Assembly: GCA_029255645.1 (NCBI GenBank)
Contig: JANLJE010000024.1
Coordinates: 1-64,000 of the forward strand
Source of the DNA: Comamonadaceae bacterium
Lineage (GTDB): Bacteria; Pseudomonadota; Gammaproteobacteria; Burkholderiales; Rhodocyclaceae
Reading direction: 5' to 3'
Length of the DNA stretch: 64,000 nt
The translations under genes and the position numbers were made by a program. The notes beneath the pieces were generated by a model. It did no database searches, was not told the origin of the DNA, and saw only the letters and a list, made by a program, of their open reading frames with translations. Shown one piece after another: positions 44,321-64,000 of this stretch. Position 1 is the stretch's first letter. Each line of letters opens with the position of its first letter.

Positions 44321-46053
44321 ATCCGTGAGCTCAACTCTATTTTGTCTTAATTCCTATTTATAAATCAATAACTTGCGTGTATAATGGCGCTTAACCCTGC
44401 AGGTGAGCGCGCCATGACCGATTTTATTATCAAGAAGCTACCCTACGACCTGAGTTCCAACGCCGGCTTGGCACTCGTTGGGCAGTATCTGAAGCGCATC
44501 CATCTGAACGCCCTGGTCGATCCGGCCTTTCCTGTGCGCTCGGGCATCTCCAACAGCGACATCGTGCGCACCTATCTGGCGCTGCTGTGCATGGGCAAGA
44601 GCGACTTCGAGGCGGCCGAGGCGTTTCGCTCCAGTGCCTTCGCCCGGCACGCGCTGGGCATGCGCCAGGCGCCATCGTGCGCGACCTTGCGTCAGCGCCT
44701 GGACGCCCAGGGCAGTGCGTGGTTCGAGCGGGTCGATCAGATCAACGAGCGGCTGCTGGCGCTGCGCCTCGATGGTCGGCCCGTCGATTTCGGCCTGCTG
44801 GCCAACGGCTACTGCCCCGTGGACATCGACACCTTTGCCATGGACAACGGCGATAGCGCCAAGGAGGGCGTGGGCCGCACCTATGCCGGGGTGGACGGCT
44901 ACTGCCCGCTGGCCGCCTACCTGGGCACGCAGGGCTACTGCCTGCAACTGGCGCTGCGCCCGGGCACGCAGCATTCGGCCTGTGAAAGCCAGTACAACCT
45001 GGAGCATGTGCTGCCGCTGGCCGCGCGGCTGAGCTCGGCGCCTTTGTTGCTGCGTGCCGATTCGGGCTTTTGCAGCAAGGATCTGATGCTGGCCGTGCAC
45101 TCCCACGCCAGTGCGTTGGGACGCACCGTCGATTACCTGATCAAGTGGAATCCGCGCAGCACCCCGGTGCAGGCTTGGGCGCAGGCCAAATGCGCCGATG
45201 AGGCCACCGTCTGGTGCCTGCTGCGCGAAGGCAAGCGCGCCTGCGTGTGGCAGGCGGATGTCGAACTGGCCCGGGGCGAGGACGATCAGCCCATCGTGGC
45301 CCGGCGCATCTACCGCCTGACCGAGCGCACCATCGACAAGCAAGGCAACCACCTGCTGCTGCCGCAGTACACCCTGGAGGGCTGGAGCACCAGCCTGCCC
45401 CAGAGCATCACGCCGGCGCAGATCATCGAGTTGTACTGCCAGCACGGCACCCATGAGCCGTTCCATTCCGAGTTCAAGACCGACATGGGGCTGGAGCGAC
45501 TGCCCTCGGGCAAGTTCGACACCAACTACCGGGTGTGTCAGATGGCCTGCGTGGCCATGAACCTGCTGCGCCTGATCGGCGTGCACACCCTGCACGGCAA
45601 GGATGCGCCCGTGCGCCACAAGGCCCAACGTCGGCGCATCAAGACCGTGATGGAGGAGATTGGTCTACAAGGCCGCGCGGCTCATTGGCCATGCGGGCCG
45701 CTGGGTGCTTGGTCTGGGCGAGCACGATCCGGGCTACGCGGCCTTTGCGCGCCATTACGCCCAACTGCGGGCGACATAGACGGGCGACATGGCGCAGCGC
45801 GGTGCCCTGACCAGCGACTGCGAACCTTTCCGGCAACACCCGCCACCCGTGCAGCCATCGCTGCAGGCCCAGCCCTGCACGCTGCGTACCGAACACCGGT
45901 TGTGGAGTGTCTTGATGGCCGCTGGGACGACGTTCATGCCCGCCATAACGGCCAGCGCAGGGTCTTGGACGCATGCAGGCAGGCAATCCGGGCGACGAAA
46001 TTCAGAAAATCCAATGAGGTGCGGATTCGTTATGGGGTGGTCACGGATTCAGG
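44316..46053 (+). mobile_element. IS1380-family insertion sequence
   Basis: The ends are exact inverted repeats CCTGAATCCGTGA (44316-44328) and TCACGGATTCAGG (46041-46053), enclosing one transposase gene. The flanking tetranucleotides (AGAT and ATTT) differ, so no target duplication remains. The transposase is frameshifted. Confidence 0.88.
44414..45779 (+). pseudogene. IS1380-family transposase with +1 frameshift
   Basis: The frame starts MTDFIIKKLPYDLSSNAGLA and carries the DDE regions FAMDNGDSAKEGVGRTYAG, LLLRADSGFCS and HGTHEPFHSEFKTDMGLERL. Near 45662 an extra base changes TVMEEI to a wrong frame. Skipping one base restores VYKAARLIGHAGRWVLGLGE and a stop at 45777-45779. The catalytic core is complete, so only the last 40 residues are lost. 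A sequencing error or programmed shift is not excluded. Confidence 0.8.
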
Positions 46054-63169: not shown

Positions 63170-63282
63170 TTGCTCAGACCAAGGTTTATTAATTCCTGAA
63201 TCCGTGTCCTCATCCCCAAAAAAAGTTTAACACATTGATGTAAAGCTATATTTTCGCTTTCGACTCCTTCACCCAACTGACC

Positions 63283-64000
63283 ATGCCGCGCTTTGGAGTC
63301 AAACAGACCCGCAAACTCAACCTGACCTCGTACTCTGGATTGGCATTGATTGGGCAATGCTGTCAGGCGGCGCAAGTGGACGCGGTGATTGATCCGCGCC
63401 AGCCGGTGTCGCTAGGCCTGCGCACTTCCGACGTGGTGAAGTCGATGGTGAGGTTGTTGAGTTTGGGCAAAAGTGACTTTGAAGCCATCGAGCCGTTGCG
63501 TGATGACCGTTTCTTCAAAGAAGCCCTGGGTTTGTCGAAGGTGCCGGGTAGTGTCTGGATTCGCCAGCGACTTGATGCCCGGGGTGCCGAGCTGCGTGAG
63601 CTGACCGACGAGCTCAGCCTGCGGCTCATCGAACGCACCGAAGCGCCGATCACGGCACAACGGGTTACGTCTGCTGCGACCACCTTCGTCATGGACCAGC
63701 CCGCAGGGCGCAGGACGCCGCGCAGCGGCGGCCCTGAGCGAAGCGAAGGATTCGGCACCGCCGAACACAACAGTGACACCAAGAAAGAAGCCGTCAGCCG
63801 CACTTATCAAGGCGTCGATGGCTACACCCCGATTGCGGCCTATCTGGGCAATGAAGGCTGGAACATCGGCCTGGAGCTGCGAGCGGGTTCGAAGCACTCG
63901 GCCTTCGAGACCGTCCACTTTCTGGAGCGCGTCTTCCCCCGCATTGAACGTCTCGCCCCGGCGGATAGCGGCGTTCTGCTGCGCCAGGACAGTGGCTTTG
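63283..64000 (+). CDS. IS1380-family transposase, partial, with in-frame insert
   Basis: 239 codons are visible and the frame is open to the window end, which is why the ORF track omits it. It begins MPRFGVKQTRKLNLTSYSGL and contains VSRTYQGVDGYTPIAAYLG and LLRQDSGF. Compared with the family pattern (MDNSxTKKEG), 24 extra residues separate MD from NSDTKKE. These come from a 72-bp palindrome-rich insert that keeps the frame but lies beside the first catalytic aspartate. Confidence 0.82.
   Translation, partial: MPRFGVKQTRKLNLTSYSGLALIGQCCQAAQVDAVIDPRQPVSLGLRTSDVVKSMVRLLSLGKSDFEAIEPLRDDRFFKEALGLSKVPGSVWIRQRLDARGAELRELTDELSLRLIERTEAPITAQRVTSAATTFVMDQPAGRRTPRSGGPERSEGFGTAEHNSDTKKEAVSRTYQGVDGYTPIAAYLGNEGWNIGLELRAGSKHSAFETVHFLERVFPRIERLAPADSGVLLRQDSGF
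63697..63768 (+). repeat. 72-bp palindromic module inside the transposase
   Basis: Three short perfect hairpins follow each other: GCCC-gca-GGGC, CGCCGC-gca-GCGGCG and TTCGGC-acc-GCCGAA. The segment also contains CCTGAGCGAAGCGAAGG. Together this looks like a REP-type mobile palindromic element. Confidence 0.7.

Follow-up and report, generated by a model that had tools for sequence, protein, structure and literature searches.

A palindromic insert of 72 nucleotides lies within a transposase gene of the IS1380 family near the end of contig C24. The window referred to throughout is the whole stretch of DNA that was analysed, the first 64,000 nucleotides of this contig. It contains the left end of the IS and the 5' part of its transposase gene, in which the following features can be recognized.

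63195..63206, + strand: left terminal inverted repeat of the IS, CCTGAATCCGTG, matching the ends of insert-free and insert-bearing IS copies of genome G335 and the right end CACGGATTCAGG on contig C57
63283..64000, + strand: IS1380-family transposase gene, 5' part; the ORF stays open to the contig end at 64140
63649..63686, + strand: 1-nt and 5-nt deletions relative to ISAzo40, which remove the DMD motif and leave the frame restored (pairwise DNA alignment)
63694..63695, + strand: GA dinucleotide before the insert, target-derived (flank table of 52 copies; also in empty sites)
63696..63767, + strand: 72-nt palindromic element encoding QPAGRRTPRSGGPERSEGFGTAEH, missing from homologues (covariance model match 86 bits, E=9.4e-15)
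63699..63709, + strand: hairpin 1, GCCC-GCA-GGGC (alignment of copies, covariation)
63716..63730, + strand: hairpin 2, CGCCGC-GCA-GCGGCG (compensatory change in 4 of 6 pairs)
63733..63749, + strand: hairpin 3, CCT-GA-GC-GAA-GC-GA-AGG, with tandem G.A mismatches (alignment of copies, covariation)
63751..63765, + strand: hairpin 4, TTCGGC-ACC-GCCGAA (compensatory change in 5 of 6 pairs; the entire stem varies and pairing is kept)

The insert and its host transposase

The translated ORF of the window reads ...TTFVMD-QPAGRRTPRSGGPERSEGFGTAEH-NSDTKKE..., where QPAGRRTPRSGGPERSEGFGTAEH represents 24 extra residues. In ISAzo40, a Methylomonas IS and two Rhodocyclaceae loci (L048 and L054) the protein is continuous across the insertion point (FVMDNSDTKKE, FVMDQSGSKKE and similar). 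Because these four homologues run uninterrupted there, the 72 nucleotides are extra in the window transposase, and they introduce no stop codon. The original prediction had described an in-frame, stop-free, palindromic REP-like insert in this gene, and both the comparison with homologues and the covariation described below confirm it; other members of this subfamily lack the extra residues. The junctions carry an AC repeat, which leaves the ends of the insert ambiguous by 2 nt, one base each way, and makes the position 63697-63768 given earlier an equivalent placement of 63696-63767.

The window transposase matches the Pfam domain DDE_Tnp_1_4 (E=3.6e-9), as expected of the IS1380 family. The nearest named relative found is ISAzo40 of Aromatoleum aromaticum, an insert-free member of the same protein family with its DMD motif kept, which is 79% identical to the window IS at the DNA level. 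Upstream of the insert, the two deletions turn HKGYVCADMDTFVMD into QRVTSAATTFVMD, and the Asp of the conserved D-[MI]-D-T-F motif is gone. With the DMD motif deleted, the catalytic DDE residues are not intact in the window copy. The Asp beside the insert had been thought to belong to the active site. By analogy, it is probably the lost DMD Asp, rather than the FVMD Asp, that is catalytic in IS1380 transposases. Since this residue was lost through the 1-nt and 5-nt deletions, the window copy is probably inactive. No relatives of the IS1380 transposase were found in the PDB.

Contig C57 starts with the same 55 nt with which C24 ends, probably a k-mer overlap left by the assembler. C57 carries the 3' end of an IS1380 transposase without residues 278-385, the HSE region among them. 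If C24 and C57 hold one IS copy, its transposase would be doubly inactive. The outer flanks of the two parts, ..TTAATT and TACTA.., are not the two halves of a target duplication, so that a join of the contigs is tentative. Elsewhere in the window, at 44441-45667 on the + strand, lies a second, diverged IS1380-family transposase that is 49% identical to ISAzo40, insert-free and intact in its DIDTFAMDN motif. A remnant of about 110 nt from the 5' part of the window IS, ending within the first transposase codons, is found at G000:C25:57265-57377 (L057).

Conserved hairpins and the rule of insertion

A structural alignment of 26 copies, in which 22 base pairs were scored, supports four consecutive mini-hairpins, mostly with GNA triloops, where three had been claimed before. 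Pairing is present in 95.3% of the cells, and two-sided changes occur in 11 of the 22 pairs. The covariation score of 0.276 compares with 0.100 +/- 0.011 in shuffles and is attained by none of 500 of them, while 47 cells have two-sided changes, against 12.5 in shuffles. When the partner column is slid by 1-3 positions, pairing falls to 36-47%.

Hairpins 2 and 4 vary in sequence among the copies with pairing retained. In hairpin 3, the window copy has a compensated change from the CCC/GGG of its relatives to CCT/AGG. The hairpins fold in both strands, and the folding energy of the window insert relative to shuffles gives z = -2.9 as DNA and z = -1.6 as RNA. No described RNA family in Rfam matches at the insert (E <= 1). 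Stop-free frames average 5.2 of 6 per copy compared with 4.8 in shuffles, a weak difference given that the copies are related.

Copies are found both between genes and within genes. Nearly all of them, intergenic copies included, are 72 nt long, and GA, rarely CA, precedes nearly all of the 52 copies in the flank table. The element begins with CCAG... and ends with ...CACA, next to the flanking GA. Filled and empty sites differ solely by the element, as is evident from a direct comparison in G335 and, for the window and the reverse transcriptase (RT) gene of L039, from homologues. The sites are ATGGA^CAACAG (window), TTGA^ACTC (G335) and GGGCGA^AATCC (RT gene). At these compared sites no target duplication is found beyond the ambiguity of 1-2 nt. 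Within proteins, insertions adjoin conserved motifs (HSE^K, YGF^RPK and just ahead of KWPND).

Some Rhodocyclaceae copies (L024, L025, L027, L029, L042, L196) also have outer flanks that are alike, GGCGTGCCRCC..CTGA^ on one side and ^CTTTYCG on the other, suggesting target specificity or a longer version of the element.

Dispersal and host genes

A second full copy was sought in the genome of the window, as had been proposed, and only weak or chance matches were found. A degenerate partial match at G000:C53:27183-27281 (L116; 26.9 bits, E = 0.02) lies in a group-II-intron-like context. Apparent matches at the ends of contigs C6 and C1 both belong to a single coding sequence of ATPase type that is unrelated to the element. 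The original prediction was to be abandoned if no second genomic copy existed, and formally none does in this assembly; this is too strict a demand, because the module is a dispersed element with copies in many other genomes.

Other Rhodocyclaceae genera contain copies that are 80-88% identical and lie at unrelated, non-transposase sites. A pattern scan of 84,980 species returned 36 stretches, nearly all from Betaproteobacteria, with Rhodocyclaceae, Thiobacillus, Hydrogenophilus, Burkholderiales MAGs, Azospira sp. I13, Ramlibacter and Rhodoferax among the carriers. Most carrier genomes are MAGs. Viral contigs contained no copy, and plasmids searched with the window insert and with the consensus gave no match.

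Carrier genomes have 1-17 copies of the element. Several have a single copy, so recent activity is not seen in those genomes. In G335, Thiobacillus, Hydrogenophilus and the CALAMX MAG, the majority of copies have common surrounding sequence, and part of the copy number is thus that of an amplified host repeat or IS. The CALAMX MAG (2.0 Mb; L067, L069, L075, L088) has 17 copies, many near contig ends, within a longer common repeat. In Thiobacillus and Hydrogenophilus (L094, L085, L193, L197, L200 and others) most copies occupy one spot in a longer palindromic repeat, CCCTCTCCCGC..CGGGA^GAGGG..GGGGTGAGGG. This could reflect amplification of the composite or a preference of the element for the longer repeat as a target.

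A natural comparison of filled and empty copies can be found in G335, which is a complete genome. Here another IS1380 element, which has the module at a different site from that in the window IS, occurs in 11 copies with the insert and in at least 18 full-length copies without it; the transposase is 486 aa long in the former and 462 aa in the latter. The filled transposase reads EQFHSE[24 aa]KTDLDLE, and its junction is GAGT[72 nt]TCAAG where the empty copies have GAGTTCAAG. Seven of the nine intact insert-bearing copies have perfect 5-bp TSDs at separate sites. Gene conversion may have spread the insert among the IS copies besides transposition, since insert-bearing copies share SNP backgrounds with insert-free ones. 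The insert falls within, and divides, an apparent E-6-K part of a YREK signature, and for this reason the insert-bearing IS is likely to have been mobilised in trans by insert-free copies.

In total, in-frame insertions are found in six unrelated kinds of protein. For instance, BirA in a Rhodocyclaceae MAG (G568; L066) has about 23 extra residues ahead of LKWPNDLL when aligned to PDB 1bia, and no second birA was found in G568. PGI in a betaproteobacterial MAG (G569) has about 35 extra residues relative to 4wmj, including a surrounding host palindrome; again, no second pgi was found in G569. In a DnaE2-like error-prone polymerase of G114 the reading frame through the insert is that of the window copy (DQPAGRRTPRSGGPEQREGWGKAPH). 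The RT of a group II intron (L039) reads YGF[22 aa]RPKRSAHQAV, with the insert inside its RVT_1 domain, and a Thiobacillus E2 acyltransferase has an in-frame insert in its linker. The encoded peptides include PERSEG-type and SLRTATAWRPAP-type sequence. Across its hosts the element is read in at least three frames and in both orientations, so conservation does not extend to the peptide.

The element also occurs in intron RNA. At L072 (Ramlibacter) and L098 (Rhodoferax) it lies within group II intron RNA, adjoining Rfam matches to domains D1-D4 (RF02001/RF01998). The left flank of L116 is similar to those of these two intron-borne copies.

Nature and origin of the module

The most probable reading, to which we give a probability of about 0.8, is that the insert is one copy of a structured DNA element, REP-like and non-autonomous, that is spread across the Betaproteobacteria, inserts precisely 3' of GA and is most likely a tolerated passenger. 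The element would enter as a precise 72-nt unit directly 3' of the dinucleotide, without a recognisable target-site duplication. With a usual length of 24 codons and no stop in most of its frames, the element would commonly be translated when it lands in a gene, adding about 24 residues in any frame or orientation. The encoded peptide is most likely a tolerated passenger rather than a functional domain, as it is itself not conserved, and the insert-bearing host proteins are presumably made and working. The lack of target duplication and the hairpins fit the single-strand chemistry of IS200/IS605-like elements, which suggests that the module probably moves as folded single-stranded DNA, with a transposase acting in trans.

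Small palindromes in coding sequence are an established phenomenon. According to PMC10969869 and PMC3733652, the RPEs of Ogata et al. are palindromic repeats found in frame in unrelated Rickettsia protein genes, where they add tens of residues without stops, and they also occur between genes. REPs of the GTAG/CGTC type lie within uvrA, dnaE2, recB and other genes of many bacteria (Di Nocera et al. 2013, PMC3733652). The comparison with Rickettsia RPEs made in the original prediction therefore holds as regards in-frame insertion in unrelated proteins, but not in its view that such insertions are rare elsewhere, intragenic REPs having already been published.

Like RPEs, the 72-nt module is palindromic, dispersed, in frame in unrelated genes and also intergenic. 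In contrast, RPEs are about 150 nt long, whereas the module has four mini-hairpins in 72 nt, occurs in GC-rich Betaproteobacteria, encodes no conserved peptide (several frames and both orientations are used) and has no CGTC tag. We know of no shared sequence between the two. GTAG- and CGTC-tagged REPs resemble the module as small palindromes in coding regions, DnaE2 included, that can be nested in other palindromes; the module, however, is untagged, longer, multi-hairpin, low in copy number and without a consistent RAYT. Non-autonomous elements derived from IS200/IS605 have subterminal hairpins, insert 3' of a short motif and make no target duplication, and the module, within the ambiguity of its ends, seems to resemble them. 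The module differs from these in that its target is only GA, most carriers are without a Y1 transposase, and no encoded partner was found.

Membership of the RAYT-mobilised GTAG REPs or of the CGTC/RPE super-families would fit the short palindromic form of the module, its in-frame occurrence in genes such as the DnaE2-like one, as described for GTAG/CGTC REPs (PMC3733652), and its nesting in other palindromes. Such membership is unlikely: neither a GTAG tag nor an unpaired CGTC is present at either end of the element, four hairpins in 72 nt contrast with one in 20-40 nt, the copy number is low, and Y1_Tnp (PF01797) is missing from 8 of 13 element-bearing genomes, that of the window included, so that the link is patchy. 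Very unlikely is a spread by group II intron machinery, through an RNA intermediate and reverse transcription. Several copies do lie in introns or in an RT gene (the intron RNA of L072 and L098, the RT ORF of L039), and the own-genome remnant L116 has a similar context, but most copies lie outside introns, and L072, L098 and L116, having their site in common, represent one event.

Two further explanations concern the product rather than the DNA. Removal of the extra sequence by RNA processing or translational bypassing would agree with the strong structure and with insertions beside conserved motifs (HSE^K, YGF^RPK, before KWPND); yet the insert is stop-free and a multiple of three in length, its translation uses different frames and either orientation, its hairpins fold in both strands and no described RNA family matches, all of which make removal highly improbable. 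The least probable explanation sees in the insert no mobile DNA but a structural extension of the transposase, specific to a lineage and adaptive or regulatory in role. The frame is kept in the 11 G335 copies and two IS1380 transposases carry the module, but they do so at different sites, IS homologues are insert-free, the window transposase shows decay, and copies of this DNA also lie between genes, in the RNA of introns and, read in different frames, in unrelated proteins.

The tag and RAYT tests failed, the architecture differs and Rfam has no match, and a search of one literature collection of 5.4 million papers with the element's sequence words returned unrelated human-gene matches only, with no trace of the element. 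These results set the module, which is akin to Rickettsia RPEs in behaviour, apart from RPEs and from GTAG-CGTC REPs, and it is apparently undescribed. We would venture only tentatively that it represents a class not described before: a GA-targeted mobile DNA hairpin array of conserved structure, spreading without a RAYT/Y1 transposase, carried by the IS elements and group II introns in which it lands, and regularly entering essential and mobile-element genes in frame, beside conserved motifs.

With this module, the in-frame insertion of palindromes in the manner of RPEs reaches into free-living, GC-rich Betaproteobacteria, and the existence of a mobiliser is indicated. The module also provides a natural pair of filled and empty IS copies in one genome, together with two housekeeping enzymes, BirA and PGI, whose only gene found bears the insert. 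With the G335 pair and these two enzymes, the translation and tolerance of selfish insertions become directly testable.
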